Virus record (IMG/VR): IMGVR_UViG_3300021138_000028
Location: 1-62,090 of that record
Reading direction: 5' to 3' (one strand)
DNA: 62,090 nt
From: a virus
Positions 1,751 through 15,713 of this stretch are shown piece after piece. The position numbers and the translations under genes were made by a program. The notes beneath the pieces were generated by a model, which worked only from the letters and a program-made list of their open reading frames with translations, was not told where the DNA came from and searched no databases. Every line of letters begins with the position of its first letter. The stretch's first letter is position 1.

Positions 1751-1752
1751 GG

Positions 1753-1983
1753 TTAGAGTTCTCCTTCGGTTCCTGTCAGTCGTTCAATATGTTGGTAGTA
1801 GTCGCGTCGGTACTGGTCGCGGATTCGTTTCAACTCCTTAATCTCTCGCTGGGTCTGGATTTTCTGAGCGAGAGTAAAGGCGCTAGACTTAGATACTTTC
1901 TCGGTCTGTTCGATCAGAACGCTCAATCGGGCCGTCACATAGCGGACAACCGTAGCTGCTTCGTCTTGTGTCGGCTTGCTCAT
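1753..1983 (-). CDS. Small helical protein, unknown function
   Basis: 76 aa, almost entirely predicted helix with a heptad-like central region (TLAQKIQTQREIKELKRIR), so possibly a coiled coil. Its ATG at 1983 overlaps the TGA of the preceding gene (ATGA). No family is recognised. Confidence 0.7.
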   Translation of the reverse strand: MSKPTQDEAATVVRYVTARLSVLIEQTEKVSKSSAFTLAQKIQTQREIKELKRIRDQYRRDYYQHIERLTGTEGEL

Positions 1984-2336
1984 TTCAAAGCCTCCGGTAT
2001 CACGTATTTGGTTCCGTCGTGCTGTCCCATGTCTTGCCTGATACGGATCAGGCTAGTGATGATTTGATCCAATTGGTCCTGCGCGGATTTAAGCGCAACA
2101 ACATTCGGGGATTGTCCATCTTCTCGCGGACTCGGGCCATACATTTCATGGCTGCCAAGTGTTGCATCGTTGAACCATAACCGGATTCGGTTACACGATC
2201 CCATCATTAAAGAGTGGGCTCGATTCAATTCGTCGGTCGCAATGCACCATGAACCCACGTTTAGGTTCTTATTCCAGTTGTTGTAAACCTTCCGAACATT
2301 CTGACAATGCTTGTGGTATGGGATCGCCATTTTCAT
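1980..2336 (-). CDS. Hypothetical protein, 118 aa
   Basis: MKMAIPYHKHCQNV... is basic in its first half, with several Cys and His that do not form a clear zinc motif, and helical in its last third. It is linked by ATGA overlaps to the genes on both sides, which strongly supports that it is translated. Function unknown. Confidence 0.7.
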   Translation of the reverse strand: MKMAIPYHKHCQNVRKVYNNWNKNLNVGSWCIATDELNRAHSLMMGSCNRIRLWFNDATLGSHEMYGPSPREDGQSPNVVALKSAQDQLDQIITSLIRIRQDMGQHDGTKYVIPEALK

Positions 2337-2953
2337 GCTTCGATCTCCTGAGCCTCATTGACTGCTTCCAATGCTTGAATTGCCAGCGCATCGAATTCGT
2401 CTGCATCACAGTAGGCAATCAGCCGCAAAGGGGAATGATCTAGGTGCCAGTCAATATTCCTAGCATCCAAGAATCCAGCCATTGCATCAGTCCATATCTT
2501 TCGGTTTGTTTCGATACTTTTCAGATCGCCTGAGCCAAAATAGTTCGCAGTTTCTAGATCATTGAACTGGACAACGTGTTTGCCTGAATCTCCAATCCAA
2601 TAGCCTCTGACTGAATCAGAGATAACATCGCTAAGCAATTCCAGTTCTTTAGCGTCTGCACTGGACTCGTCGGCAAACCAATAAGTTTCTCCGTCTGCGT
2701 CTGATACTTGGTAGTTGAATCGTCCATCAGTGTTACTCCAAGCCTCCTGCCCGTAAAGTTCTACAAACTCGTCTTGGTCGTAAACATCGCTGACAAGTTC
2801 GGCATGGGAACAAACAATGGGGCATTGGGATTCGAATTTGAGCCCATGACCAAAGCTATCAAAGATGTAGGCTCTGATTTCCGCATCAGTGTTAGCTGTA
2901 AATTCACGGTGGAGGCTGCCGTTGCTTGAGCGGTAGTAAAGTGTTCGCTTCAT
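2333..2953 (-). CDS. Acidic hypothetical protein, 206 aa
   Basis: A strongly acidic protein (many Asp and Glu, aromatic-rich) with no signal peptide or membrane segment. Highly acidic phage proteins sometimes act as DNA mimics, but nothing here shows that directly. The ATG at 2953 overlaps the stop of the upstream gene. Confidence 0.7.
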   Translation of the reverse strand: MKRTLYYRSSNGSLHREFTANTDAEIRAYIFDSFGHGLKFESQCPIVCSHAELVSDVYDQDEFVELYGQEAWSNTDGRFNYQVSDADGETYWFADESSADAKELELLSDVISDSVRGYWIGDSGKHVVQFNDLETANYFGSGDLKSIETNRKIWTDAMAGFLDARNIDWHLDHSPLRLIAYCDADEFDALAIQALEAVNEAQEIEA

Positions 2954-3252
2954 GCTGACACCTTCTTAGCTTCAAAGAACTTGATCGCATCATCTTTTGA
3001 GGTAAACGACTGCCCGAACATTGCGTTCATAGCATAGTCAAAGAACGTCACACTGTACTTACGGTTCGTCCATCGGGCCATTGATCCAGCAGGTTCGAAA
3101 CCTGGCTCATGCTGTTTGAACTTCCAAACTCGGTTAGCTTCGTCAATGGTCTGGTCAAGGATCGTAACCTGTGACATTTTGCCTTTAGCGTCGGCATAGT
3201 CAGCAATCAAAATCTTCCCTGCTGGGATATTGCGCTCTTGAATCTCAATCAT
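2950..3252 (-). CDS. Hypothetical protein, 100 aa
   Basis: The frame can start at GTG 3267 or ATG 3252. The strong AAGGAG ribosome site overlaps the GTG, so the ATG (MIEIQERNIPAGK) is preferred, although its spacing is long. The small domain has an FFDYAMNAMFGQSF stretch and no recognised family. It is the first gene after the candidate promoter at 3331-3350. Confidence 0.65.
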   Translation of the reverse strand: MIEIQERNIPAGKILIADYADAKGKMSQVTILDQTIDEANRVWKFKQHEPGFEPAGSMARWTNRKYSVTFFDYAMNAMFGQSFTSKDDAIKFFEAKKVSA

Positions 3253-3330
3253 GGTGTCGTATTTCACTCCTTTGTATGCCTTTTGAGTCTGAGCCTGCTT
3301 CGACGTGAATTCAGGCTCAAACCCATCAAA

Positions 3331-3350
3331 CTACATATTTATAATACACT
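3331..3350 (-). promoter_or_regulatory. Candidate early promoter, -10 region
   Basis: Read leftward this gives GTGTATTATAAATATGT, nearly identical to the element at 7881-7900 before another leftward operon. It lies in the gap between 3403 and 3252, upstream of a run of co-oriented genes. No good -35 is visible at 17-19 bp, so it may need an activator or differ from the TTGAC-type promoters elsewhere. Confidence 0.5.
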
Positions 3351-3402
3351 AATTCTTTGATTTCGTGCATTATTATTTTCATTTTATCGTGTGTTTTGCC
3401 AA

Positions 3403-4152
3403 TTATTCATGCTCGATCTCCTTCTTCTTGATTTGGTACGCCATCGTGCCTTTGTGTTTGAACCTGACAACTCCTAGGTCAGACTTAGCCTGCTCCATTG
3501 TCCTCCGAGAGATATTGAGTTCGGCTATTGCGCTAGTAATCTGCCTGCCTGATACCTTGTGTGGGTAAGTGCAATTCTCTTTGAGCCAGTCCTTTGCGTG
3601 TTGCCTTGCTTTGAGCCTATTTTGCTTCCTGACACGCTCTAGTCTGGACATTCGAACCTTAGCACCATAATCTCGAACTGCATCAGAGACCTTAATGTTA
3701 AAGTCAAATTGGTTCTCGGTCGCTATGACGTACTTCTTGTTGATCCAAAATAGGACATCACAGACTCTGACTCCTTGGAGCGCGGCAAACTCAGCTATTC
3801 CGATTGTCTCTCGGGAGTAATAGATTCGTCCATTAGGTGCCTTGACACCGGGAGGCTCTTTGACATAACTCCATCGACCCAATAGTTCGGGCTTACGGTG
3901 CTCTGCACCGGGCCAATCAACATCTGGCGTCATTGTGTCAACGATGGTCATTAACCACTTGCCTTGAAACCCTGGCTGCTTGACAGATTTGACTCCTATT
4001 CGGTCCTTGACTGCGATATATGTGGATCGTTTAATTCCGTGTGATTTCATCGCTTTGAGGACATCGACGGACGGGACTAATACTCCCGTTAGCATCAAAC
4101 GAAGCACTGATTCACACCTATCTGCGGGTTTAATGGATTCTTGCGTCTGCAT
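3403..4152 (-). CDS. Putative DNA-binding regulator with two winged-helix-like modules
   Basis: 249 aa and the first gene of the long leftward operon. A similar module appears twice. Residues ~15-72 contain MKSHGIKRSTYIAVKDRIGV followed by a W-L-M end. Residues ~186-243 contain AELNISRRTMEQAKSDLGV followed by a Y-Q-I end. The pattern GI-x-R-x-T then A/K-x-x-I/L-GV, then a basic turn, resembles the winged-helix module at the C-terminus of many phage primase/helicase proteins. A basic segment near 165-185 links them. The position next to the noncoding region suggests a transcription regulator or replication initiator; this is inference. The start lies six bases after a -10 element. Confidence 0.65.
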   Translation of the reverse strand: MQTQESIKPADRCESVLRLMLTGVLVPSVDVLKAMKSHGIKRSTYIAVKDRIGVKSVKQPGFQGKWLMTIVDTMTPDVDWPGAEHRKPELLGRWSYVKEPPGVKAPNGRIYYSRETIGIAEFAALQGVRVCDVLFWINKKYVIATENQFDFNIKVSDAVRDYGAKVRMSRLERVRKQNRLKARQHAKDWLKENCTYPHKVSGRQITSAIAELNISRRTMEQAKSDLGVVRFKHKGTMAYQIKKKEIEHE

Positions 4153-4158
4153 TCACAC

Positions 4159-4188
4159 AGGTTAGCACACTTCCATTTCGACCGTCAA
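4159..4188 (-). promoter_or_regulatory. Leftward promoter with near-leaderless start
   Basis: Reading leftward, TTGACG (4188-4183), an 18-bp spacer, then TAACCT (4164-4159), then six bases to the ATG at 4152. The -35 and 18-bp spacing match the two rightward promoters at 8441 and 8642. No Shine-Dalgarno lies between -10 and ATG, so the transcript would be leaderless or nearly so. Confidence 0.55.
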
Positions 4189-4553
4189 TTCATTGGGGTA
4201 ATGAGTCTGCACGTTTGAACCTAGCCTATGTTGATCTCCCCTTTGCACACAGTATTGAATTTCTCAGCATTAGCCAATGGATACATTTATCCTAACTTAA
4301 ACTCTGCGAGCTTATGTTGTGTATGCCTTTGCATGAGGGGAAGATTTGGGAAGTGATGTAAGTTTGCGCACAATAGGTTCAACTCTAAGCACTGAACTAT
4401 AGGGTAAGAATGCTAAGAATCCACAGGGCAATTTTCAAGTGTGCAACGAACCGGGGAATTTCAAGGCTTGAAATAAGATTCTTTCACAGAAAAACCTTGT
4501 TCCTCCTGACACCGGGAGACTTTTGGGGAAGTGCTGTTTTTTCCTTGCACATA

Positions 4554-4562
4554 TGGTACAAT
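4554..4562 (+). promoter_or_regulatory. Possible extended -10 element
   Basis: TGGTACAAT fits an extended -10, and it sits in an inverted repeat GGTAC - 9 nt - GTACC that could be an operator. No -35 and no obvious gene follow it, so this is weak. Confidence 0.2.
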
Positions 4563-4738
4563 GCCGTCGTACCTCTAGAAAGGGGGAAAGGGGGAAAGTG
4601 TATTTCAGCTTTCGCCCGATTACGATTTATGCGATAGACCCTTTGACTGTTTTCAAAAAGTAAGAGTTTGAAGAGTTCGTTTTTTGGATGTGGTTTGAGT
4701 CTTGGAAAATCATTCAAAATAGGCTTTGCATAGAATCA

Positions 4739-4951
4739 GGTTGGGGGAATGGGCCTATCGGCATCCAATCAGTAATCTTTTCCGGATCGCTTCGCTCATA
4801 CATGAAAACTTTCCGGATGTTCCCTCGCTCTGCTCGGATCACACCTGCTACGCTTCGCGGTAAGGGACGACTTTCAACCATATCAGATAAAAGGTTATTG
4901 AGGACGTTTAAAAGGGCGCTCGGCGCTCTACAACCGTTTGGTTGGGGGAAT
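4739..4951. repeat. Pair of 12-bp direct repeats
   Basis: GGTTGGGGGAAT occurs at 4739-4750 and 4940-4951, exactly 201 bp apart, in noncoding DNA. Related words (CCGGGGAAT) flank them at about 4451 and 5119. They could be protein-binding sites. Confidence 0.45.
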
Positions 4952-5282
4952 TGCGCTGAAACGGGCGTCTGGGCGGCAAAAAGTGGCAATTCTCGCGGGG
5001 TAAGAATCCTGCTTGAAAATGGTCACTCGGTCCTGGCTGCCTTCTGAGTTCTCGGAGGTTGACTGATTTCATTGGGGGAGTTCGATTGTCGGCTCGATCT
5101 GGGCCAGCTGCGAACTTCAACCGGGGAATCCTCACGTCGGGCTGAATTCCTTGCCTATTCCCAACTTCTATATAGAACTGCCACATTTCCACGTCTGTCT
5201 ACTGCATGATTTTCGAGGGTCCGGCGAGCGAACGCGAGCGGGTGATACTTAAACACTCATTTGACTATCGCCTCATACACCC

Positions 5283-5309
5283 AATAGTCTATCAACTAAG
5301 TAGACTATT
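5283..5309. repeat. Perfect 9-bp inverted repeat
   Basis: AATAGTCTA, a 9-nt loop, then TAGACTATT. It lies just past the leftward terminator at 5318-5356. It could be an operator or a second hairpin that helps RNA 3'-end formation. Confidence 0.6.
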
Positions 5310-5317
5310 CGCTTGAC

Positions 5318-5356
5318 GTAAAATAAAATCCACGGGGAGTAGACCTCCCGTGGATT
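5318..5356 (-). terminator. Rho-independent terminator of the 5382-7861 operon
   Basis: A perfect 10-bp stem (AATCCACGGG / CCCGTGGATT) with a 10-nt loop at 5327-5356, followed on the leftward transcript by a T-rich tract (TTATTTTA). It lies directly after the last gene of the leftward operon. Confidence 0.85.
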
Positions 5357-5381
5357 GGTTGCTTTCAGGTTCGCGTAGTCG

Positions 5382-5600
5382 CTAGCGATAGATACAAGGC
5401 TCTATCGTCCATCCATAGGTAGGGTGGTTCCATACTCGGAACTGCCTATCGGATAGCTGCACGAAAGTGTGGTGACCGGGGCCGCTGCGTAGGTGCATCT
5501 GTCCAGCAGGTGAGTCTATCCATTCCTGGAACGCTTGTTCCTCTTTCTCGAATAGCCAATACTTTCTGCCTTTGAAGTCGATCGGGGTTTGGTTGCTCAT
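5382..5600 (-). CDS. Small protein, unknown function
   Basis: 72 aa, rich in aromatic residues (FKGRKYWLFEKEEQAFQEW, NHPTYGWTIEPCIY), probably a compact beta-containing domain. It is the last gene before the terminator, and its start overlaps the stop of the gene at 5597-5836. No family is recognised. Confidence 0.7.
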   Translation of the reverse strand: MSNQTPIDFKGRKYWLFEKEEQAFQEWIDSPAGQMHLRSGPGHHTFVQLSDRQFRVWNHPTYGWTIEPCIYR

Positions 5601-5836
5601 AGACTTCTGTTCCTCTCGTGGAATGTGTCAAGGTCTATAGCTCCTACTCTTAGTAGAAGTACGTTGTGAAAATAGGCGGCGTCCCGTTGGTTTCCCTTGG
5701 CTTGCGCGTCTTCCACGTCGGCGCAAGATACTGCAATCGATCGGTTATAGTCGGGGCCATACTCCCGGTATTTAGAGTATGGCGATAGGTCGTATTTGGT
5801 GGTGGTTGGCACTAGATGTATCCCTGCCGTGGCCAT
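5597..5836 (-). CDS. Small protein, unknown function
   Basis: 79 aa starting MATAGIHLVPTTTKYD. It overlaps the end of the upstream gene by 25 bases and the next gene by four. No motif or membrane segment is seen. Support is operon spacing only. Confidence 0.6.
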   Translation of the reverse strand: MATAGIHLVPTTTKYDLSPYSKYREYGPDYNRSIAVSCADVEDAQAKGNQRDAAYFHNVLLLRVGAIDLDTFHERNRSL

Positions 5837-6081
5837 ACGATCTTGTTATCCTTGAACCGTAGGCTTGAATAGTGGCACGATCGTACGCGTATCCAGCAGT
5901 TTGATTCCTTCCCCCATGTTTCTTTCCGTAGGCTTATGGCTTGGAACTTGTACCGGTACTTGGTCCCGTCTGGTAGCGTCTTAACGTAGTGACCGAATTT
6001 ATCTTTGGTGAATCCGTAGGTTGTTAGAATCGCGATAGCTTGCGCGATATTTTGGCTCTGTGTTGTCTTGGTTGTTCTCAT
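5812..6081 (-). CDS. Small basic protein, unknown function
   Basis: 89 aa. The ATG at 6081 follows a good AAGAGGA ribosome site. The basic, aromatic C-terminal half (KYRYKFQAISLRKETWGK) might bind nucleic acid, but no family is recognised. Confidence 0.65.
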   Translation of the reverse strand: MRTTKTTQSQNIAQAIAILTTYGFTKDKFGHYVKTLPDGTKYRYKFQAISLRKETWGKESNCWIRVRSCHYSSLRFKDNKIVWPRQGYI

Positions 6082-6098
6082 TTGTTCCTCTTAAAATC

Positions 6099-6440
6099 CT
6101 AATAATTAGACAAACTAGTCCAACATGATGGACGGTGCCCGTCTGATGGACGCGCAAAATCTTCCACTACGTTGCCTGCGGCCAACCATATAGCATAGGT
6201 ATGTAGGGTTTCGGTTGTCATCTCGTCTATGGCTTCGACACCATAACTTTTAAGGCATTCGCGATAGAACGTGTCTGGCACTCGTGCTAATTGCCGATGG
6301 CACATACGTGCATAGAATAAACAGGCTTCCTCGCATTGTCCTTGGTGGTAGCACTCTTGAGCCATTGCTAGGGGAATGTAGAATTCAACGTCTGAGCCTC
6401 CCAGTGGCTGCACTTTGAATCTTGGTTTTGTTGTTCTCAT
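6099..6440 (-). CDS. Hypothetical protein, 113 aa
   Basis: The start is set at ATG 6440, which overlaps the TGA of the upstream gene (ATGA); the longer open frame to 6563 is ignored. The N-terminus MRTTKPRFKVQPLGG is basic. The middle is helical with several Cys and His (QECYHQGQCEEACLFYARMCH) that could bind a metal but match no known motif. Confidence 0.65.
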   Translation of the reverse strand: MRTTKPRFKVQPLGGSDVEFYIPLAMAQECYHQGQCEEACLFYARMCHRQLARVPDTFYRECLKSYGVEAIDEMTTETLHTYAIWLAAGNVVEDFARPSDGHRPSCWTSLSNY

Positions 6441-6739
6441 TTGGCTGATACCTCTAGTCGATCGTAAGTCGCGCAAGCATCCATATGTGCCTGATTCCAA
6501 AATATTCGCGCACGCTCCAAGCTGGTAGTACCTGCACATTCCCATAAGTTTAAGCCTCCACATAGGCGCAAGGATTCACGGAAATATGCACGTCTGATTT
6601 TAAGGAATAGTGGAGTAGATTTTATCCGTTTGTGACTATCTCCACCAGTCCAAGCTATCCGGTTGTACGTGATACCGTCAACCTTAACAGTTGTTAGTGT
6701 TGTATCACTCAGAGTAGGTTGTACGTCAAATCGCTTCAT
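6437..6739 (-). CDS. Hypothetical protein, 100 aa
   Basis: A basic protein (MKRFDVQPTLSDTTLTTV...) linked by four-base overlaps to both neighbours. No recognisable domain; the last third appears helical. Confidence 0.65.
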   Translation of the reverse strand: MKRFDVQPTLSDTTLTTVKVDGITYNRIAWTGGDSHKRIKSTPLFLKIRRAYFRESLRLCGGLNLWECAGTTSLERARIFWNQAHMDACATYDRLEVSAK

Positions 6740-7029
6740 AGCTTACCTACCGCCTTTAAGTGTCGTAGCTGATACTCACCTTCAGCTACGGCGCGGGCTG
6801 TCATCCCGATAGCGAAGACCCTTAGAAACTCGTCGGCTTCGGCTTGGGCTAGCCACCGATTTGTAAACTTGCCGCCGATCAGTGACTCGTTAGCTGGTTG
6901 GCCATTAACTACGAAGCGGTAGCGGTACATGTCGGGTGGTATCACTAGGTCGGTATCTACTTGTATATCGACCGAGACACAATGCGACTGCATAGCCTTA
7001 ATTACCTTCAGTGTTTCGGTTAGCGTCAT
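6736..7029 (-). CDS. Hypothetical protein, 97 aa
   Basis: The ATG at 7029 overlaps the TAA of a 33-codon upstream gene (TAATG), the main reason for choosing it over the in-frame ATG at 7044. It begins MTLTETLKVIKAMQSH and looks alpha/beta. No family is recognised. Confidence 0.65.
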   Translation of the reverse strand: MTLTETLKVIKAMQSHCVSVDIQVDTDLVIPPDMYRYRFVVNGQPANESLIGGKFTNRWLAQAEADEFLRVFAIGMTARAVAEGEYQLRHLKAVGKL

Positions 7030-7130
7030 TACCTTGTGCCCCATCGGGTCGCAGACTTTGCGCGTCTGGCTAGTCGGATAGTGTATTTAGCTGATGTTTT
7101 GGGCTTATCGCCGTATCGTCGTGTATTCAT
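7029..7130 (-). CDS. Very small basic protein (33 aa)
   Basis: MNTRRYGDKPKTSAKYTIRL... is strongly basic. The ATG at 7130 has an AAGAGGA ribosome site nine bases upstream, and the TAA overlaps the next ATG. This packing makes a coupled small gene likely. A basic peptide this size could bind nucleic acid. Confidence 0.5.
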   Translation of the reverse strand: MNTRRYGDKPKTSAKYTIRLARRAKSATRWGTR

Positions 7131-7157
7131 AGGTTGTGTATCCTCTTAACTCACTTG

Positions 7158-7204
7158 GAGCAGACTTCGGACTGCTCTTGTGGTTTACAACCTCTTGCGA
7201 GGTT
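7158..7204 (-). promoter_or_regulatory. Two tandem hairpins between genes
   Basis: AACCTC-ttgc-GAGGTT (7189-7204) and GAGCAG - 8 nt - CTGCTC (7158-7177) lie in the only sizeable gap of this operon. Neither is followed by a T-run on the leftward transcript, so they are more likely processing or stability elements than terminators. Confidence 0.45.
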
Positions 7205-7216
7205 GCCGTCACCATA

Positions 7217-7477
7217 CTAACTAACTAGCTCTCGCATCATATCATTTAGCTCTGCGATGCATAATTCCGTGCCTCCAAACTTGAAGCCATCAGGTGTACG
7301 GTCCTCAGCCATGCCGTACTGCTTAATGAACGAACGATACGGCGTTCTGCCCTTGTAGGACTGCATAAATCCGCAGGCCATTCTGTATAGTGGTTCGTCG
7401 TTGCCTATCCATAAGGCAATATTCCATGTCGCACGGTTCTTCCATCCGTTGTATCGCTCTGTCGTCTTAGTTGTCAT
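7217..7477 (-). CDS. Conserved phage protein, DUF7249-like
   Basis: 86 aa. The stretch NGWKNRATWNIALWIGNDEPLY resembles a small protein family common in phages (NGW-x-N-R-x-TW-x-x-x-LW). Function unknown. It is the third gene of a leftward trio starting at 7861 that carries common small phage families. Confidence 0.75.
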   Translation of the reverse strand: MTTKTTERYNGWKNRATWNIALWIGNDEPLYRMACGFMQSYKGRTPYRSFIKQYGMAEDRTPDGFKFGGTELCIAELNDMMRELVS

Positions 7478-7478
7478 A

Positions 7479-7664
7479 CTATTTACCTACCTTGTTGCAA
7501 GCTGCTCGGAACTTTGCCGCGTCGAATAGTGGATTGGTAGCATTTAGGTCTAACGTCAAACGATGAACTAGGATATCCAATACGTCTTGTGCTTCTGAAT
7601 GCTGATTCATGGCTCTAGCCTCTCGAATAGCATTGGCGATGAGTTGGTAGTCTTTGCGTGTCAT
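7479..7664 (-). CDS. Conserved small phage protein (MTRKDY family)
   Basis: 61 aa: MTRKDYQLIANAIREAR, a Leu-rich helical middle, and a C-terminal NPLFDAAKFRAAC. This layout is common among short phage proteins of unknown function. The start overlaps the stop of the gene at 7661. Confidence 0.75.
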   Translation of the reverse strand: MTRKDYQLIANAIREARAMNQHSEAQDVLDILVHRLTLDLNATNPLFDAAKFRAACNKVGK

Positions 7665-7861
7665 TGTTGCTCCAAAATAAAGAAGTCGCTAGGCTTACCG
7701 TTAAGGGTAATGCCGTCTGCCCATGTTAAGCCGATGATATAACCGTTATCACATACAATTAAAAATCGGCTTAAACGGTCAAGCATTACCTTGTAGTTTT
7801 GGTTCCCGCAGTAAACGGTCTTACCGTCTGCTACTGCGTCTTTGATCTCGTGGAGTGTCAT
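7661..7861 (-). CDS. Conserved small phage protein
   Basis: 66 aa: MTLHEIKDAVADGKTVYCGNQNYKV ... GLTWADGITLNGKPSDFF. Similar short proteins (an N-terminal 'IKDAV-x-x-GKTV' and a C-terminal 'GVTLNG') occur in many phages without known function. It is the first gene of the 5382-7861 operon and has an AAGGA ribosome site. Confidence 0.75.
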   Translation of the reverse strand: MTLHEIKDAVADGKTVYCGNQNYKVMLDRLSRFLIVCDNGYIIGLTWADGITLNGKPSDFFILEQQ

Positions 7862-7880
7862 TTGTTTATCCTTGTCTTAC

Positions 7881-7900
7881 TGACATATATATTATACACG
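7881..7900 (-). promoter_or_regulatory. Candidate early leftward promoter, -10 region
   Basis: On the leftward strand GTGTATAATATATATGT contains a consensus TATAAT (7896-7891), 30 bases before the ATG at 7861. It shares GTGTATWATAWATATGT with the site at 3331-3350. An inverted repeat GATAGC...GCTATC at 7903-7936 lies upstream and could be an operator. The -35 is poor. Confidence 0.6.
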
Positions 7901-8440
7901 TATGATAGCATATAGCAGTAAGAATTTTTGCTATCCTGACCGCAATAATCTATAGCATCCATCCATCATATCAGTCCTGGGAAAGCCGTCCAGCGTGGCC
8001 GATCGGGACTGCTTGGATGTAACCGTCCCTATGTTCCTGCTCGGATAATCGGGTTACCTATAGGGGGTGGGGGTACCCAGCTTTTCCCCGATCGACTCTA
8101 GGCGACAAGCCTCCTTCCGCATCTCAACCTATTTTGGGATGCCGAAACTTTTTCCATTAAAATCGGAGGTTTAACTTTTGGAGACTTTTCGATCAAGGGT
8201 CGGATGATTAGTTGCCAAGTATCGCAGGTTCCCTTGTTATCAGAATTCATTGGTGATAAGATGTTGAAGGCCGCAGCCACTTTCGTAATCATGGAAGCGA
8301 CACCCAGACAGGTAGGATGCGGCCCTATCTCCTAACTCAAGAATCCAAAGGCAAAATTAAGAAACCAGAGTCAAAATCAAGAAACCAAAGGTTCAAATAC
8401 TGGGAAACCCGAAGGGGTAAACAAAATTTGGATTGTTGTA
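7901..8440. other. Control region between divergent operons
   Basis: No convincing gene. A 64-codon leftward frame near 8098-8292 has no ribosome site. Nested inverted arms GTAACC/GGTTAC and CCCTAT/ATAGGG (8019-8065) have pseudoknot order, and a 20-bp tandem repeat lies at 8339-8398. The region could hold an origin or regulator sites. Confidence 0.5.
8339..8398. repeat. Three 20-bp tandem repeats (iteron-like)
   Basis: Units at 8339, 8359 and 8379 share the pattern AAGAA(T/A)CCAAAGgCAAAAT with a few changes. They are noncoding and sit about 45 bp upstream of the first rightward promoter. Tandem repeats of this size often bind replication initiators or transcription regulators. Confidence 0.6.
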
Positions 8441-8470
8441 TTGACTTGTGGTGTCGAAAGGTCGTAGGAT
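8441..8470 (+). promoter_or_regulatory. Rightward promoter P1
   Basis: TTGACT (8441-8446), an 18-bp spacer, TAGGAT (8465-8470). The sequence GTCGTAGGATGTTGTTG (8461-8477) is repeated exactly at promoter P2. The predicted start near 8477 would give an RNA of about 155 nt ending at the terminator at 8593-8633. Confidence 0.65.
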
Positions 8471-8476
8471 GTTGTT

Positions 8477-8631
8477 GAGCGAGATGTTCACACGTTAGCT
8501 TGCCCTGGTCGTTAGTCGTATTTCCTCCGGGGCTTTTAGGTTTTATTGGTGACTGGTCATTAAAGATCGGCGGTTCCTCCCTCTCAATTGGGCCTTGCGA
8601 GTTTTCATATCCTCGCAGGGTTCTTTTTTTT
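8477..8631 (+). ncRNA. Candidate short transcript between P1 and its terminator
   Basis: The interval runs from the predicted P1 start to the first terminator. It has no sizeable open frame (an ATG at 8484 gives only MFTR). It could be a small RNA or an attenuated leader of the late operon. Predicted from promoter and terminator only. Confidence 0.35.
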
Positions 8632-8633
8632 CT
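8593..8633 (+). terminator. Strong rho-independent terminator T1
   Basis: A nine-bp stem (CCTTGCGAG / CTCGCAGGG, one G-T pair), a ten-base loop, then TTCTTTTTTTT. It is oriented rightward although no gene lies upstream on this strand. Confidence 0.9.
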
Positions 8634-8641
8634 GTTAGGGG

Positions 8642-8671
8642 TTGACGGGACTTAATGGGATGTCGTAGGAT
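8642..8671 (+). promoter_or_regulatory. Rightward promoter P2
   Basis: TTGACG (8642-8647), an 18-bp spacer, TAGGAT (8666-8671). It carries the same 17-mer (8662-8678) as P1 and starts nine bases after T1. Its transcript meets terminator T2 after about 60 nt, before the first late gene. Confidence 0.65.
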
Positions 8672-8718
8672 GTTGTTGCTTAGTTGATTGGGTTTGGTGT
8701 TCTCAGTGGTTCTGGATT

Positions 8719-8745
8719 GGGGTTCTCTTAGGAGAACCCCTTTTC
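8719..8745 (+). terminator. Strong rho-independent terminator T2
   Basis: A perfect nine-bp stem GGGGTTCTC / GAGAACCCC, a four-base loop (TTAG), then TTTTCTGTTT. It lies between P2 and the first late gene at 8773. Confidence 0.9.
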
Positions 8746-8772
8746 TGTTTATGGTGTTATGATGGTGTCGTC

Positions 8773-9090
8773 ATGGGATTTTTAAAGACTTATGTGTTGA
8801 CCACACAGGATGGTTTGTTTGTTTGTCGGACGTTGGAGGATCGGGATGTGAAGGAGTTCGGGAAGCGAATTCACTCTGACGGTGGTTTTGTTCATGGGGT
8901 ATTGAAGTCGACTTGGGTTCCTGTGGGACGGGTGGAGAGAATTTCGGCATTGGGGGATGTTAGGGGGATGAAGCCTTTGGAGACTAAGGCTGTGATTGAG
9001 TATTCGAAGGATCGAGAGGCATCGGAGGGTATTGAGAGCATAGATTGGGTGGTTAAGAACTACGGAGGTGTATCTGATGGTGTTGAGTGA
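8773..9090 (+). CDS. Hypothetical protein, 105 aa, first late gene
   Basis: MGFLKTYVLTTQDGLFVCRT... has an N-terminal beta-like half and no recognised domain. The ATG follows a TATGAT (8758-8763) by nine bases and lacks a clear ribosome site. Its end overlaps the start of the endolysin candidate, suggesting coupled translation. The sense strand from here to about 9700 is notably rich in G and T. Confidence 0.65.
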   Translation: MGFLKTYVLTTQDGLFVCRTLEDRDVKEFGKRIHSDGGFVHGVLKSTWVPVGRVERISALGDVRGMKPLETKAVIEYSKDREASEGIESIDWVVKNYGGVSDGVE

Positions 9091-9694
9091 CGCTGGGAAT
9101 TATGTTGGGATAGATACGGTGGGTTCGACTTTTGAGAAGGCTCATGCTTTATATGATCTTGGTGTTAGGGTGGTTTTCAAGTATTCGGAGAACACTCATA
9201 CTTATCCTGAGAAGACTTTTGACCGGGATATGATTGTTGGGTTATCTACGATGGGCATTCGTCGTGGGTATATCTTTGAGCGATTTGATACGGTGGCTGA
9301 GTTTGCCGATGGGAATGCGGAGGTTTATGCTCGGATAGCGTCAGGGAAGATGAATGCTGACGGGGCTAGGCAGAATACTTTGTGTGTATTTTGTGTGGAT
9401 TTTGATGCGAGTGATGATGAGTTGGAGAACTTGATTGTGCCGTTCTTTGAGAAGGTACATGGGCTTATGAAGGCTGCTGGTTACTTCATTGGTGTTTATG
9501 GGTCAGGGAAAGTTTGTGCTCGGGTGAAAGGATTGGGGTTTGCTCATTGTTCGTATCTTGCTCAATCGAGTGGATGGGAAGGGACGAGTGAGTATGAGGA
9601 CTGGGATATTAAGCAGCATGAGAGTGCTACGGTATGTGGACTTGATGTTGATTGGATCGAAGTAAAACCTAGCGTGTTGGCTTATCTTGCATAG
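9077..9694 (+). CDS. Putative endolysin, DUF1906 (Rv2525c-like glycoside-hydrolase fold)
   Basis: 205 aa from ATG 9077, which has a GGAGG site eight bases upstream; GTG 9068 would lie on that site. Features match the glycoside-hydrolase-like DUF1906 family: GIDTVGSTFEKA near the start, CVDFDASDDE in the middle, FIGVYGSGKVCARV, then SGWEGTSEYEDWDIKQHE and CGLDVDW at the end. The Asp residues in VDFD and the DW(D)IKQ strand are positioned as in that fold. Such domains occur in phage lysins, and the gene sits among small membrane proteins, so a peptidoglycan-degrading role is likely but unproven. No signal peptide, so export would need a holin. Confidence 0.75.
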   Translation: MVLSDAGNYVGIDTVGSTFEKAHALYDLGVRVVFKYSENTHTYPEKTFDRDMIVGLSTMGIRRGYIFERFDTVAEFADGNAEVYARIASGKMNADGARQNTLCVFCVDFDASDDELENLIVPFFEKVHGLMKAAGYFIGVYGSGKVCARVKGLGFAHCSYLAQSSGWEGTSEYEDWDIKQHESATVCGLDVDWIEVKPSVLAYLA

Positions 9695-9728
9695 GTGGTG
9701 TATTCTGTTGTCGGCTGAGGGGTCTTAG

Positions 9729-10013
9729 ATGATGGTGGATTCCAAAGAGATGATAGGGTTAACAGCTACTTTCGGTGTTTTCTTTTTGTCCCTAGCCGCT
9801 GGTGGCTTGATTAGTTATTCGAAGATGGCTGGTAGGATGCTGGCACTTGAAGGGCAGGTTCAGGTATTGACTACAGCTTTGGCTGTCGCTCAGAAAACTG
9901 CGGACGAGATTAAGGGAATGGTTATAGCTATTCAGATCGCTCAAGCTAAGACTGATACAAGGGCAGAGACATTGCAAGCTATTCAAAGTGCCGTTCATCC
10001 AGGGCACCCTTAA
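9729..10013 (+). CDS. Small membrane protein with coiled coil (lysis or spanin candidate)
   Basis: 94 aa. One membrane segment (~residues 8-30, LTATFGVFFLSLAAGGLISY) is followed by a helical region able to form a coiled coil. This layout is found in phage inner-membrane lysis proteins. Placed directly after the putative endolysin. Confidence 0.6.
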   Translation: MMVDSKEMIGLTATFGVFFLSLAAGGLISYSKMAGRMLALEGQVQVLTTALAVAQKTADEIKGMVIAIQIAQAKTDTRAETLQAIQSAVHPGHP

Positions 10014-10040
10014 CGCTTTTATGTAGGGTACAAAGTACGC

Positions 10041-10304
10041 ATGGGTCGTACTGGTGGATGGATAAGTTGGCTGGTACTCTTGTTTACGCTACTCGCGTCG
10101 ACCTTGAGTGGCATTTCGTTGTATGTTGAGCTTCATGCTCCATCGAATGCCGAACTTGAATCCAAGATCAAAGGATTAGAATCTCAGAATGATGGGTTCA
10201 GGGAGCAGATCAAATACTTGCGCGGCAGGCAGGATCAGAATGATAAACTGCGGCAGGGTTTGAATGACCTCTATATAGAACTCAAGAAGGAAGGGAAATT
10301 ATGA
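10041..10304 (+). CDS. Small membrane protein, i-spanin-like
   Basis: 87 aa with an N-terminal membrane anchor (ISWLVLLFTLLASTLSGISLYV) and a charged coiled coil (ELESKIKGLESQND ... LRGRQDQNDKLRQ). This is the classic arrangement of an inner-membrane spanin subunit. A lipoprotein gene lies nearby at 10833 and could be the partner. Inference from topology only. Confidence 0.55.
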   Translation: MGRTGGWISWLVLLFTLLASTLSGISLYVELHAPSNAELESKIKGLESQNDGFREQIKYLRGRQDQNDKLRQGLNDLYIELKKEGKL

Positions 10305-10507
10305 ATGGTTTAACTCAGGCAGAATGTCAGCAGTTTTTAGATCTTGGTGGTAATGCTCAGACTGATTTGGGCGCACCAAGTACGGTTGCAGCAACGGCTT
10401 TGGCTATTTGGTCTTGGATTGATGGCTTGACAAATGTAACCGATCATTTGAATAAGCTGAATTTGATTCGGGCCTTTATTCGTGCGAACGGTGGCACTAG
10501 CAACTAA
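10301..10507 (+). CDS. Small hypothetical protein, 68 aa
   Basis: MNGLTQAECQQFLDLGG... overlaps the previous stop (ATGA). It is mostly helical with a Trp-containing amphipathic middle (ALAIWSWIDGL). No family is recognised. Confidence 0.6.
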   Translation: MNGLTQAECQQFLDLGGNAQTDLGAPSTVAATALAIWSWIDGLTNVTDHLNKLNLIRAFIRANGGTSN

Positions 10508-10509
10508 CG

Positions 10510-10656
10510 ATGGAAGAGAAGGATGAACGAGAAGATGAGTTTGAGATGGATCACTTTATCTCGGGCTGGATTATCTTGTTTGTGATCGGGTTCATCTTTG
10601 CTGTTGCGGTTTATCTCCTTGCTCCATTCTTGCCACCAGTTATCAGTTTGGGATAG
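10510..10656 (+). CDS. 48-aa single-pass membrane protein (holin candidate)
   Basis: A highly charged N-terminus (MEEKDEREDEFEMDHF) is followed by one long hydrophobic segment (WIILFVIGFIFAVAVYLL). Starts two bases after the previous stop and ends just before the next gene. Small size, one membrane helix and its place in the lysis block make it a holin or antiholin candidate. Confidence 0.55.
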   Translation: MEEKDEREDEFEMDHFISGWIILFVIGFIFAVAVYLLAPFLPPVISLG

Positions 10657-10657
10657 G

Positions 10658-10846
10658 ATGGTGGCTATGAGCAAGGGGAGATTCTTGTTTGAGGTAGGTC
10701 TTTATGCTGGCATTGCTGGCTTGACAGCTTACTTATCTGCGCCAGATCCTATAACCAAGCGGGGTGTGGTGATGATTTTGATTCCGATTCTGACCGTAGT
10801 GAAGGCGAAACTTTCGCCTGGGAGTAAGACAGATGGTAATTCGTAG
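10658..10846 (+). CDS. Small two-pass membrane protein (holin candidate)
   Basis: 62 aa from ATG 10658, one base after the previous stop; a longer frame would overlap that gene. Two hydrophobic stretches (FLFEVGLYAGIAGLTAYL and VVMILIPILTVV) are separated by a short polar turn and followed by a Lys-rich tail, a layout common in class II holins. Confidence 0.55.
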   Translation: MVAMSKGRFLFEVGLYAGIAGLTAYLSAPDPITKRGVVMILIPILTVVKAKLSPGSKTDGNS

Positions 10847-11207
10847 TTTGATTTGCGCTGGTGCTTTAGCGGTAGCTGCTTGTTCGATGGGCCAGTCGCT
10901 TGCAGGTTATGTGAGTAAGGGACAAGCTTATGTGGTCAATGTGACTCCACTCAAGACTGTGTTTTCCAGAGGAAATGTATCGGTTAAGACTGATATGCTC
11001 GTAGGACTCAAGGCTACCGATCCTGCTGGTGCTTTCGGGTTTGGTGGGACACTGACTTATCAGGTCAATAAGACTTATGGGGTGTTCGTTGGACTGGCTG
11101 AGGTTCAGGATACGGCTACTTGGTCGACCAAGAATTTGAGCCTGCAACGGGCACGATTGTTCGTTGGGATTAGTGGACCGATCAAGCTAGGCATTTTTGG
11201 GCTCTAA
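10833..11207 (+). CDS. Predicted lipoprotein, 124 aa
   Basis: MVIRSLICAGALAVAAC carries a signal peptide with a lipobox-like VAAC (Cys17). The rest looks beta-rich and ends in Gly and hydrophobic residues. It could be an outer-membrane spanin subunit, though it is long and beta-rich for that, or a surface-exclusion lipoprotein. It overlaps the preceding gene by 14 bases. A lipoprotein suits a didermic or a monodermic host. Confidence 0.6.
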   Translation: MVIRSLICAGALAVAACSMGQSLAGYVSKGQAYVVNVTPLKTVFSRGNVSVKTDMLVGLKATDPAGAFGFGGTLTYQVNKTYGVFVGLAEVQDTATWSTKNLSLQRARLFVGISGPIKLGIFGL

Positions 11208-11624
11208 ATGACCAAGGTTCAAGTTGTTGTGGAGTCCTGGTTTGGGCTCTTGTATTCAAAATGGGGCGGGATCGCCCGATACTTTCAGCATTGGAATGAT
11301 GCGAAGGTAGCAAGTGAGGTTGATATGGCATCAGTAAGTTTGAAAATTAGTGCGCCGACGTTTACCAATCCGATTGTGATTGCGATTGATCCGAGTGAGA
11401 TTGCTTCCCCAATTCCTGTGGATGCGACGTTCAAGGCTTTCAGTCCTGCCGGTTCTGCGAACTTGGAGACGATCACGGTGGATTTGAGCATCGGTGGATT
11501 GGAGATCGTCAAGAACCATGTGATTGATTCTTTCCCGATTGATCTTGGCGTCAAACTTGGATGGGTTGGTTCAATCGTAAAAGCGGCTGACGCGACTATC
11601 GAACTGGACATCGTAGCGGGTTAA
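11208..11624 (+). CDS. Hypothetical protein, 138 aa
   Basis: Starts immediately after the lipoprotein stop. The N-terminal ~35 residues are amphipathic with several Trp. The remainder is beta-rich and looks like an immunoglobulin-like sandwich, but no family is certain. It lies between lysis and packaging genes. Confidence 0.6.
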   Translation: MTKVQVVVESWFGLLYSKWGGIARYFQHWNDAKVASEVDMASVSLKISAPTFTNPIVIAIDPSEIASPIPVDATFKAFSPAGSANLETITVDLSIGGLEIVKNHVIDSFPIDLGVKLGWVGSIVKAADATIELDIVAG

Positions 11625-11632
11625 ATACGGAC

Positions 11633-12034
11633 ATGACAAACGAAGAGAATGTTCCTATTGAAGAAGTTGCTCCTACCGAAGAAGTGACTACCGAAGCTCC
11701 TGCGGTGGAAGAGGCTCCTGCCGTTGAAGCAGAAGTAACTTCCGAACCGGAACCAGAGGTTAAGCCAGAAGGTGAGCATGTTGCTCCTGCGGTGGAAGAT
11801 CAGGAATCTGATGTTCAACCAGAGGAAGTTGCGGCTCCGGTAGAGGAAGATGTTCCTACGGTAAAAGAGTTTCAGCCTGAGTGGAATGAAGTTATCCATG
11901 AAGAGAAGCATCGTATTGAATGGTGCCTCTTGGAGAATGGAAAATTTCGTATTCGGCCTATTTCTTTTCAAGGCCCGACGTATGACAGTGATACGTTGGA
12001 AGAAGGGCTCGCTCGGGTTCCTTTGCTTTACTAA
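11633..12034 (+). CDS. Acidic Pro/Glu-rich protein
   Basis: 133 aa. About 80 residues are low complexity (repeats of EEVAPTEE, APAVEE, EPEPEVKPE), presumably disordered. A C-terminal ~45-aa segment (HRIEWCLLENGKFRIRPISF) looks folded. It is the last gene before a strong terminator. Function unknown. Confidence 0.6.
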   Translation: MTNEENVPIEEVAPTEEVTTEAPAVEEAPAVEAEVTSEPEPEVKPEGEHVAPAVEDQESDVQPEEVAAPVEEDVPTVKEFQPEWNEVIHEEKHRIEWCLLENGKFRIRPISFQGPTYDSDTLEEGLARVPLLY

Positions 12035-12058
12035 GGGCTGCCTGGTCAGTAGTCGATT

Positions 12059-12090
12059 GGGGCTCGTGCTTTCACCACGATGCCCCTTTT
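12059..12090 (+). terminator. Rho-independent terminator
   Basis: GGGGC-TCGTG, a seven-base loop, CACGA-t-GCCCC (one bulge), then TTTTC. It closes the lysis block 25 bases after the stop at 12034. Confidence 0.9.
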
Positions 12091-12101
12091 CTTATGCCTT
12101 C

Positions 12102-12132
12102 TTGCTTGGTTCTGGCAACCTCGGTTTATAAT
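12102..12132 (+). promoter_or_regulatory. Promoter for the packaging/head operon
   Basis: A consensus TATAAT (12127-12132) with a TTGCTT 19 bp upstream. The -10 ends five bases before the ATG of terS, so transcription would start at or near the start codon. No Shine-Dalgarno is present, in line with a leaderless message. Confidence 0.55.
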
Positions 12133-12137
12133 GTGGC

Positions 12138-12773
12138 ATGGCTCTATATGACAACTTACCGGACGAGACCCCGGCACAGAAGCGACCAAAGGGATTGACC
12201 GACCAAGAATGGATGCTTGTTGTTGAGTATTCGGCTTGCAAAAATAAGCGTCGTGCGCTAGATAAGGCGGGGTATCCCAAACACGCTTTGCATATTTTAG
12301 AACAACCTCACATTCGGATTGCTATTGCCGCTGAGGTCAAGAGCCAGATTTCTAGGGCTCGAAAGACGGCTGATGAAGTCATTAAGGCTTGCGAAGACGT
12401 GGTGTTCTCGGACATTGAGGATTTGATCTTTGTCGACGCTGAGGGCAAGATTCGATTGAAGCCATTGGACGAGATTCCTGACGATAAGAAGGCATTGATC
12501 CAAGGTTTGATTATTCGCAGGGATGGTTCGATTGACCTAAAGATCCCAGAGAAAGCGGTGATGATGCGGCTACTGATGACGGCACATGGGCTGCTTACGG
12601 ATCGTGTTGAACACGTTACCGAAGATAATGTGCTCCATAAGATGTATGCCGTCGCTATGGCTCGGAATGGGATCAGTGAATCGGTTGCAGGTTCGATCAT
12701 TATTGATGTTCAGAGGCAGATTGAACTTATGCCTCGAGCAACCAAGAATATGACACCAAAGGAAGATGAGTAA
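12138..12773 (+). CDS. terS: Terminase small subunit
   Basis: 211 aa. It fits the Terminase_2-type small subunit. An N-terminal helix-turn-helix region (EWMLVVEYSACKNKRRALDKAGYPK, read in two parts) has the typical A-x-x-x-AGY element. A long helical section then leads to DIEDLIFVDAEGKIRLKPL and the L-K-P-L-D-E-I-P segment seen in this family. The small subunit recognises packaging sites in phage DNA and regulates the large subunit. It overlaps the next gene by eight bases, as expected for terS-terL. Confidence 0.8.
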   Translation: MALYDNLPDETPAQKRPKGLTDQEWMLVVEYSACKNKRRALDKAGYPKHALHILEQPHIRIAIAAEVKSQISRARKTADEVIKACEDVVFSDIEDLIFVDAEGKIRLKPLDEIPDDKKALIQGLIIRRDGSIDLKIPEKAVMMRLLMTAHGLLTDRVEHVTEDNVLHKMYAVAMARNGISESVAGSIIIDVQRQIELMPRATKNMTPKEDE

Positions 12774-13566
12774 GACCAACTTACCTATTCGATCCATGCG
12801 GGAAACCGTTGCGATCAAGAATATCACGAAGGATGCTATGGCGGCATTCCGATCAGCCCAATCTCCATCGGAGCGTCCGATGTGGCCTGATGAGTACATG
12901 GGCGATGATCCAGAATCAGCATTTAGGTTCGTAACTGAATGCTGGTGGACGGACAATGAAGCAGACAGGAAGATTGAACTGATTCCTAAGCGGGAATTTG
13001 TTTATGACTTCTGTGTGGAATGGGTGAATGCCTATCGACTTCGACAACCTATGATCTGCGAGAAGTCTCGACGTATCACGATTTCGTGGATATGCCGGGG
13101 ACTTGAAACTTGGGTCATGGGAAAGCAACGTGGATCGTGGATTATCATTGACCAAACTCATAAGAACGCTGCCGAACATCTGTGGCGAATTGATTTCTCG
13201 CTGAATCAGTTAAAGAACAGGAAGCCTGAGTACAACATTGAGTTCGAAACTCGTGGATCGGTTTTGATAAAGGAGCCGACGAACATCATTCTCGGAAATG
13301 GTTCGATGATTACGCAAGGTCACCAAGATGCAGGATCAGCACAAGGTAAAGGTAAGACGGGTGTTACACTTGAAGAGGTTTCAAAGTATGCGAACCCTAG
13401 TGAGTTTTGGGGACAAGCATTGATCGTTACTCAAGGTTCTGGTGAAGGGTCTGGTGGTTGGGTCTGTGGCATTGCCAATGCTTCTCCCAACGCTGACTGG
13501 CTCAAGATCAAGCATAACATGAGGGCTAGAGCCTTCCTTGGGATAGATGATAAGGATTGGATCTAA
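12766..13566 (+). CDS. Terminase large subunit, ATPase part (split terL)
   Basis: 266 aa covering the ATPase half of a phage large terminase. A P-loop-like element CEKSRRITISW lies near residues 97-107, with an Arg/Lys-rich loop in place of a classic GKT as in many terminases. The Walker B with catalytic Glu is GVTLEEVS near residues 198-205. The coupling motif region is GIANASPNADW. The frame ends at TAA 13564-13566, overlapping the ATG of the nuclease gene (TAATG). The usual single protein is 450-600 aa; the two parts add to 556 aa. Confidence 0.85.
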   Translation: MSKTNLPIRSMRETVAIKNITKDAMAAFRSAQSPSERPMWPDEYMGDDPESAFRFVTECWWTDNEADRKIELIPKREFVYDFCVEWVNAYRLRQPMICEKSRRITISWICRGLETWVMGKQRGSWIIIDQTHKNAAEHLWRIDFSLNQLKNRKPEYNIEFETRGSVLIKEPTNIILGNGSMITQGHQDAGSAQGKGKTGVTLEEVSKYANPSEFWGQALIVTQGSGEGSGGWVCGIANASPNADWLKIKHNMRARAFLGIDDKDWI

Positions 13567-14438
13567 TGGCGCATCCTGGTCATCCAGTTAAGGGTACCGA
13601 TCTTGCCGATGGGACTCGATATGTGGCTATTCATTTCTCTGCCGATTCGACCAAAGGGCAGGAATGGGAGCAAAAGAAAGCTCGTGGTATTCCCGAAAGA
13701 TCGTGGAAACGTGAAATGGGGATGCACGATGATGTCTATGAAGGAGAACCCGTATTCTCCGATTACTCGGACGTTAGGCATTGTCCTTTCAGTATTCGTG
13801 AGACAGGTATTCCGATCTTTCCCAACTCGGTCTATATCGGTGGTTGGGATAATGGGCTCACTCCTGCCTTTACGCTACTTCAAATTACGCCACTATTCCA
13901 AGTCCAGTGTATTTTGGAGGTTACGTCGGGTGGTGATGATCCGATGGAAACGTTTGCGCCAAAGGTTCTCAATGCTATCGCTAGAAGAATCCCCGGCGCA
14001 TGGGACGAGGTTTACCATATTGGTGATCCGTCGATCTGGAACAGGACTGCAACGACGGGTGATAGTCCTGGACTATTAGCCAAGCGGAAATTTGGGATCA
14101 ACATTCGACGGGCAAGTAACGTTTGGGGCGTCAGACAGTCTGCCGTGACATGGCTTTTGACCGATCAGATTGATCCGAAGACTGAACGATTTATTCTTGA
14201 TGCCAAACATTGTCCAATTTTGAGAATTGGTTTCCAAGGCGCATATCAATTTGAAATTTCGCCTCGTGGAGATACGATTGGACCGGGGCGTATTCTTATG
14301 GAACCATTGAAAAATGGCTACTCACACGTACATGACGGGCTCCAAGCAGCAGCACAAGCGGCTAGAAAGTTCTGCGAGGGCAAATTAGCTCTCGGGATGG
14401 GCCTTCATCATGATACAATGCCAAAACGATGGCACTAA
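13566..14438 (+). CDS. Terminase large subunit, nuclease part (split terL)
   Basis: 290 aa from ATG 13566 (TTG 13557 is an alternative). It has the RNase H-like nuclease layout of terminases: first acidic residue in GGWDNGLTPAF (~93), second in HIGDPSIW (~153), third in SHVHDGLQAAAQ (~256). This domain cuts the concatemer at the start and end of packaging. A stop at 13551-13553 in this frame and the absence of a slippery heptamer argue against ribosomal frameshifting. Termination-reinitiation giving two polypeptides is more likely. Confidence 0.85.
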   Translation: MAHPGHPVKGTDLADGTRYVAIHFSADSTKGQEWEQKKARGIPERSWKREMGMHDDVYEGEPVFSDYSDVRHCPFSIRETGIPIFPNSVYIGGWDNGLTPAFTLLQITPLFQVQCILEVTSGGDDPMETFAPKVLNAIARRIPGAWDEVYHIGDPSIWNRTATTGDSPGLLAKRKFGINIRRASNVWGVRQSAVTWLLTDQIDPKTERFILDAKHCPILRIGFQGAYQFEISPRGDTIGPGRILMEPLKNGYSHVHDGLQAAAQAARKFCEGKLALGMGLHHDTMPKRWH

Positions 14439-15373
14439 TTGACCAAAAAGTTCCTCAAGACATCGTAGATAGAGCGATTGCGAAAGCTCGCAACGTATTT
14501 ACGTGTCCTCATTGTGGCGCACCAAAAGGACAGCAATGTCGAAACGTCGGGTTAGACGATATTCATGATGTTCGGATGCCAAAAGGGATTGGATTTGCCG
14601 ATTTCCTTGACCTTGAAGCTAATTCTCCCAAGCTAGAGCAGATTGCACCTATGCTATTCGCTAAGAGGCTTGAAACGGTTAGGGTTCCCAAGCAGATTAC
14701 TCGTGGAGATATTGATTACAAGACTGCATCTGAGTCCGTAAGGGTTTTGGATGGTCGAATTCTTGTTGAAATGCTTCCTTCTGCGAAGCGATCTATTTTG
14801 ATTCCAGAATCAGTGGAGAGTAAACTAAGACCTCACCTTGGAGTCGTGTTGCAGTCGATGGAATACGCGACCCCGCGATGCGGAACTTACGTTTATCCTC
14901 CCAATCCGGGAACGATTGTGATTGTCAGGAGAACGGACGGTACTTGGATTACTGATGCTTACATGGGTGGCTATCAACCTCAAAATGAGGTTCGAGTTTA
15001 CGGTGTATATGGTGAGTTTCGGGGTCATCCTCAGATTTATGACTGGTGGGATTCTGTTCTTGCATCATATAATGAAGATATGGCTGCATGGGTACCCTAT
15101 GGGGATAAGATCCTCTTTCGACGTGATGCAAGTTTTGAAACAAGCGAAGGTGGGATTTATCTCCCTAATGGCTCACACCGTAGAACGGCAGAAGCAACTG
15201 TTGTTGCTGTCGGGCCGCTGGAAATGGATGTGAAGGTTGGCGATCGTGTTTGCTATGATCCATTCCATATTGAGCAGGTTGGCATTGAAGTCGACGGTGA
15301 AGTAGACATTGATCTTTTGATCGGTAGCCAACTTTCGATCAACTATGTGATCCCTGAGAAGGTGGTGGCATGA
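14429..15373 (+). CDS. Zinc-finger protein with two GroES-like domains
   Basis: 314 aa. Residues 26-49 hold C-P-H-C ... C ... H (Cys26, Cys29, Cys37, His46), a short zinc finger like those at the N-terminus of some phage proteins. Residues ~222-309 match GroES/Cpn10 closely: PYGDKILFRRD, then SEGGIYLPNGS (the mobile-loop region), then EATVVAVGPLE, VKVGDRVCYDP and a closing hydrophobic strand. Residues ~105-175 look like a second, more diverged GroES fold (VLDGRILVEMLPSAKRSILIP ... LGVVLQS ... GTIVIVRR). The protein might help host GroEL fold capsid proteins, as T4 gp31 does, or be a virion component. It overlaps terL and is translationally coupled to the next gene. Confidence 0.7.
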   Translation: MALIDQKVPQDIVDRAIAKARNVFTCPHCGAPKGQQCRNVGLDDIHDVRMPKGIGFADFLDLEANSPKLEQIAPMLFAKRLETVRVPKQITRGDIDYKTASESVRVLDGRILVEMLPSAKRSILIPESVESKLRPHLGVVLQSMEYATPRCGTYVYPPNPGTIVIVRRTDGTWITDAYMGGYQPQNEVRVYGVYGEFRGHPQIYDWWDSVLASYNEDMAAWVPYGDKILFRRDASFETSEGGIYLPNGSHRRTAEATVVAVGPLEMDVKVGDRVCYDPFHIEQVGIEVDGEVDIDLLIGSQLSINYVIPEKVVA

Positions 15374-15498
15374 ATACTCGTTACCTTCAATGGTGGGACA
15401 ATCATCTAGCGTTACAGTTGCTTATTATCGGTGCAGGATTAGCACTCGTTTTGTATTTCGTTGTATCCAAACAAGTCAAAAAGAAGGGTCTTAAATGA
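15370..15498 (+). CDS. 42-aa single-pass membrane protein
   Basis: MNTRYLQWWDNHLALQLL... has one hydrophobic helix (LQLLIIGAGLALVLYFVV) and a Lys-rich tail (KQVKKKGLK). Its ATG overlaps the previous TGA and its TGA overlaps the next ATG. Function unknown; membrane proteins this small are unusual between terminase and portal. Confidence 0.65.
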   Translation: MNTRYLQWWDNHLALQLLIIGAGLALVLYFVVSKQVKKKGLK

Positions 15499-15707: not shown

Positions 15708-15713
15708 AAGCAC

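Follow-up and report, generated by a model that had tools for sequence, protein, structure and literature searches.

The intergenic region and the late operon

The window is the whole virus record IMGVR_UViG_3300021138_000028, 62,090 nucleotides long. The record is probably complete, either as a circle or with redundant ends, because its first and last 84 bases are identical. An array of 18-bp tandem repeats lies at the record ends, at 1-345 and 61977-62090. Genes for RecT, an SbcC-like ATPase, an RNA ligase, a primase/helicase, a helicase and a methyltransferase are found elsewhere in the genome.

The leftward genes have their first start codon at 7861 and the rightward operon begins at 8773, leaving about 910 bp in which no convincing gene is found. 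Two promoter-like sites, P1 and P2, lie 201 bp apart in this region, and each is followed by an intrinsic terminator, T1 and T2, respectively (Table 1). An earlier note on this DNA had held that nothing of size is encoded in between; indeed, no ORF of at least 60 aa is present from P1 to T2 on either strand. On the leftward side, a Twister-P5 self-cleaving ribozyme is matched at 7160-7213 on the minus strand (50.1 bits versus a gathering score of 37.6), adjoining the small leftward gene at 7217-7477 on its downstream side.

The late genes start just after T2, as the same note had said. Their order is a 105-aa gene, an endolysin-like hydrolase, membrane proteins, TerS, a terminase-like gene, GroES and portal. 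Each of the membrane or spanin-like proteins has a hydrophobic segment, and one of them is weakly Rz-like. The protein encoded at 14429-15373 has a phage zinc-finger-like stretch at its front and a GroES (Cpn10) domain at its end. All predicted genes from T2 to about 39 kb are co-directional, and the operon is about 30 kb long. A terminator-like hairpin at 21544-21570 sits in a gap inside this operon, after a gene for a 359-aa protein, and would have to be read through if the late operon is a single transcript. Further downstream, at 29737-29910, an exact repeat of about 54 bp, with copies 120 bp apart, lies at the 5' end of the gene that encodes a 2428-aa protein.

Table 1. Features of the region around P1, T1, P2 and T2
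Feature	Position	Strand	Remarks
Three tandem A-rich 20-mers	8334-8393	+	Upstream of P1; possible activator sites, protein-binding sites or iterons
Genome maximum of G/T excess and minimum of C	8427-9844	+	From P1 across T1, P2, T2 and the first two genes (105-aa and endolysin)
P1 promoter-like site	8441-8470	+	TTGACT-N18-TAGGAT; predicted start about 8477-8478
17-mer GTCGTAGGATGTTGTTG, copy 1	8461-8477	+	Extended -10, -10 and discriminator of P1
Predicted P1-T1 RNA	8478-8633	+	About 155 nt; no ORF of size
Extra hairpin and TTTTAGGTTTT in P1 leader	8502-8540	+	Weaker terminator- or pause-like site; hairpin 8502-8533
T1 intrinsic terminator	8590-8633	+	Stem 8590-8623, then U8 (TTTTTTTT)
P2 promoter-like site	8642-8671	+	TTGACG-N18-TAGGAT; predicted start about 8678-8679
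17-mer GTCGTAGGATGTTGTTG, copy 2	8662-8678	+	P2
Predicted P2-T2 RNA	8679-8745	+	About 65 nt
T2 intrinsic terminator	8719-8745	+	Stem 8719-8740, then UUUUCU (DNA TTTTCT)
First gene after T2, 105 aa	8773-9090	+	No family match; no hydrophobic segment
Endolysin-like gene	9068-9694	+	Rv2525c-like glycoside hydrolase domain

Paired promoters, terminators and predicted leader RNAs

Both promoters reported in the earlier note are present at the positions given there, and the pair is unique in the genome. TTGAC-N18-TAGGAT occurs exactly twice on the two strands of the 62 kb, at 8441 and 8642, and a search with spacers of 18 to 20 nt finds no further site on either strand of the window. Taken singly, P1 and P2 are ordinary, with 9 of 12 consensus matches each; a rough sigma70 matrix, which assumes sigma70 rules that may not be those of the host, ranks them 18 and 32 among 124,100 positions. 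The 17-mer that they were said to share is exact; it begins four bases before the -10, includes it and runs on for seven bases, to about +1. Only these two copies exist in the window, and allowing up to three mismatches adds one site, which is intragenic (shuffle mean 0.11 matches). The longest exact repeat in 7862-8772 is 17, versus 15 in 1000 dinucleotide shuffles of that sequence, and two TTGAC/TANNAT promoters occur together in none of 3000 shuffles of the region. The two sites agree in TTGAC, at an equal distance, and in the 17 bp but otherwise differ in the 18-nt spacers, the pattern that a pair from one promoter class would give and a recent whole duplication would not. Recent duplication of the complete unit was rejected on the dissimilarity of both the spacers and the RNA bodies.

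Other viral contigs (L003, L010-L071) match the 17-mer or its core in single copies, which were treated as chance; apart from the near-identical contig described below, none has two. Three of these contigs (L003, L011 and L012) read as unrelated sequence, and the single site in L010 looks intergenic. A leftward promoter-like site, TTGAGA-N17-TTTAAT, is located inside the P1 leader at 8559-8587 on the minus strand, facing P1. It ranks 7 by the matrix and could yield an antisense RNA.

The two terminators proposed earlier are the top two on the plus strand when sites are scored by hairpin energy and U-tract, T1 being the best in the whole genome, although their edges need small shifts, the T1 stem beginning at 8590. 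The T1 stem has 12 pairs (-18.6 kcal/mol, z -5.9) and that of T2 has nine (-17.6 kcal/mol, z -3.8). Whole-genome shuffles contain on average 0 sites that match T1 in quality and 0.6 that match T2, and two terminators as good as these appear in 0 of 300 local shuffles. The promoter-terminator arrangement is non-random, and the doubled unit is real and probably functional. The 7-nt sequence GGGTTCT, common to the 3' arm of T1 and the 5' arm of T2, was set aside, as a match of this kind would be expected by chance in such short arms.

The predicted P1 and P2 RNAs are dissimilar beyond the first base or so, and the shared block belongs to the promoter DNA. In minimum-energy folds of the separate leaders, T1 and T2 are intact and no alternative antiterminator is evident. 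In the fold of the full read-through RNA, T2 is kept while the outer bases of T1 are re-paired, again with no specific antiterminator evident of the kind that attenuator-type refolding would need. The covariance models of Rfam 15 give no above-threshold match over 8441-8745. A chance match to a cyanobacterial sRNA at 8691-8742 reaches 20.7 bits versus a gathering score of 35.7 and is driven by the T2 hairpin.

The only related contig, IMGVR_UViG_3300021133_000036, is 99.4% identical over 7.66-21.7 kb and keeps both units. Within 8441-8772 it differs by two SNPs, at 8569 in the P1 leader and at 8607 in the T1 loop, both outside the promoters and the terminator stems. The unchanged units are consistent with constraint, in a relative too close for proof. 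Divergence between the two contigs is about 9% over 7657-8053 and near zero after 8053, which is likely to be a recombination boundary within the intergenic region. Protein and DNA scans of IMG/VR returned this one near-identical contig and no other relative, a genome scan with the primase/helicase found no relative, and 50,697 phage records searched with the DNA of 1-20000 and the late proteins gave nothing useful. These searches gave no distant relative, and with it no independent conservation of the two units.

Base composition from P1 onwards

The DNA to the right of P1 has a distinctive composition. In a sliding analysis, the GC skew climbs to +0.4 past 8 kb. A change-point fit of G+T places a step at 8427-8428, with a support interval of 8410-8448, at P1, and an end near 9844. 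No other step in the genome is as large; the second largest, at position 400, adjoins a tandem-repeat array. The bias is sharpest at 8428, runs unbroken across T1 and T2 and decays rightwards. At the fourfold sites of the first two genes, 3 of 141 positions (2%) are C, whereas the remaining late genes have 16% (P = 3e-7), and runs of at least three G number 40 in 1.3 kb versus a median of 12. Both C and A are depleted while the GC content is little changed. Such a joint loss is as expected from deamination on an exposed strand rather than from Rho avoidance, which would deplete C alone.

The footprint suggests that heavy exposure of the non-template strand begins at P1 and that read-through, or an R-loop, occurs. 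With both terminators inside the biased stretch, transcription or R-loop formation must often have continued beyond them over evolutionary time. This argues for frequent read-through in the life of the phage, which fits a switch that opens. A foreign origin of the 1.4-kb piece would be an alternative reading of the bias. The lambda genome has no composition step at pR', and the idea that such a step is a general mark of late promoters was dropped.

Continuation of the footprint past T1 and T2 also bears on whether the two units are simply small-RNA genes, whose stable terminated products of about 155 and 65 nt would act in trans while other or leaky transcription serves the late operon. Each unit is complete in itself, with a promoter, no ORF and a strong terminator, that of T1 ending in U8, and the pR'-tR' transcript of Stx phages is known to be processed into the sRNA StxS (PMC7873438). 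However, besides the continuing footprint, the two predicted RNAs have almost no sequence in common, their common block being promoter DNA, and the units abut a late operon for which no other late promoter of the P1/P2 class exists. We regard this explanation as rather unlikely on its own. A small-RNA role and a late switch are not exclusive, and would be compatible in the manner of StxS.

The same asymmetry could arise if the region were a transcription-primed replication origin, in which RNA from P1 and P2 forms an R-loop on the G-rich non-template strand and provides 3' ends as primers for DNA synthesis, and the plus strand, once displaced, gathers C-to-T and A-to-G changes. The sharpness of the step at 8428 with its rightward decay, the abundance of G runs and the tandem repeats in the 910-bp intergenic region are in keeping with such an origin. 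At fourfold sites, moreover, the G/T excess of the plus strand is either positive or close to zero in all segments, independent of gene direction; it is weak over most of the genome and peaks at 8.7-9.85 kb, a hint of a replication component. However, the minimum of the overall cumulative GC skew lies at 4304 and that of the detrended G/T curve at 41765, neither of them at 8.4 kb; no initiator gene adjoins the region, and heavy transcription or a foreign segment could give an equal bias. We judge an origin quite improbable. Still lower is our estimate for a doubled unit that is both late switch and transcription-primed origin, the terminated P1 and P2 RNAs priming via R-loops and the same starts feeding the operon; such a unit would account for the start of the genome's strongest strand asymmetry at P1, but we consider this combination very improbable.

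Proposed late control and comparison with known systems

The reading that we favour, with moderate confidence, is a doubled late leader of the lambda pR'-tR' type, in which transcripts are held at T1 and T2 until read-through is allowed. It is based on the non-random anatomy, the order of genes after T2 and the G/T step that begins at P1 and crosses both terminators. Judging from the motifs, host RNA polymerase with its main sigma factor would start at both P1 and P2. Early on, given the strength of the terminators, most transcripts would stop at T1 or T2 as the two short RNAs, which may double as sRNAs. Later, polymerases from P1 and P2 would become termination-resistant, or so frequent as to pass T2, and read-through would then serve the roughly 30-kb operon, which encodes lysis, packaging and virion proteins. 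The simplest reason for an identical block next to unlike spacers would be recognition of these 17 bp, at the -10 and the start, by a factor. P1 transcripts would have to pass two terminators and P2 transcripts one, which would make the switch stricter and stronger.

The late switch proposed in the earlier note is partly supported: the anatomy and the position before the operon fit it, and the antitermination factor or RNA element that it invoked was not recognised. Family scans (PHROGs and Pfam) of nearly all ORFs, the 2428-aa protein being left out, recognised no Q-, N-, AlpA- or sigma-like protein, no phage RNA polymerase and no antitermination protein. Q proteins are diverse, and family scans could miss one. 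A promoter class of a phage polymerase or sigma factor was also considered; no gene for either was recognised, and the motif occurs at these two sites only, not repeated genome-wide. Inspection by eye finds a pause-like element, GATGTT, at about +7 to +12 in P1, no clear one in P2 and no sigma-pause element common to both.

These scan results are in accord with a plainer explanation, in which P1 and P2 are strong late promoters of an ordinary kind, insulated and followed by leaky terminators, and there is no dedicated switch. T1 and a weaker terminator-like hairpin upstream of P1, at 8115-8146, would shield the operon from stray transcription, and P2 or both promoters would drive the late genes, perhaps with an activator at the A-rich repeats. 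The concentration of terminators, with 4 of the 11 best plus-strand sites falling within 8115-8740, and the three A-rich 20-mers upstream of P1 fit this arrangement. T2, however, follows the last promoter and precedes the first gene, a place where it would cut the operon's own expression and makes no sense as mere insulation, and we judge this explanation unlikely. If the doubled late leader is correct, a lambda-like late switch exists as two consecutive copies in a phage group of which hardly any relatives have been sequenced, and, since no known antiterminator is recognised, the controlling factor would be new. The footprint from P1 would further mean that long-term transcription or strand exposure can be read from a genome, which is testable on other uncultured phages.

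The earlier note knew of no exact match to the doubled arrangement, and this holds within what was searched; several known systems have features in common with it. In lambda, pR'-tR' produces a late leader (6S RNA) under Q antitermination. As there, a sigma70-like promoter is followed by a gene-free, terminated leader and then by lysis and terminase genes in a long operon, and the order of functions after T2 is that after lambda pR'-tR', for which the lambda lysis genes were checked. Unlike lambda, this phage has two consecutive units and lacks both a recognised Q gene and a clear pause or binding site of the Q type; its strong C-poor footprint has no counterpart in lambda. The put element of HK022, about 70 nt with two long stem-loops, acts on early transcripts (PMC9378689). 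As with put, an RNA element near the promoter could carry polymerase through terminators with no protein involved, but the P2 leader has little beyond the T2 hairpin and lacks the two stem-loops, and the P1 leader hairpins before T1 have no Rfam match. StxS is a functional sRNA from the Stx-phage pR'-tR' transcript, and resembles the present case as a by-product of a terminated late promoter that can be an sRNA; it comes from a single unit and is enterobacterial and Hfq-dependent (PMC7873438), and the likeness noted here is one of arrangement. AlpA of Pseudomonas aeruginosa is an antiterminator that binds promoter DNA and passes one or two terminators (alpB, PA0807; PMC7969949). In AlpA promoters, as here, the promoter is followed by intrinsic terminators, one or two for AlpA, before lysis genes or the second target operon. 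AlpA has one promoter per operon, with its element between -35 and -10, whereas the shared block here covers -10 to +1 (PMC7969949). AlpA is a precedent for an antiterminator that reads promoter DNA.
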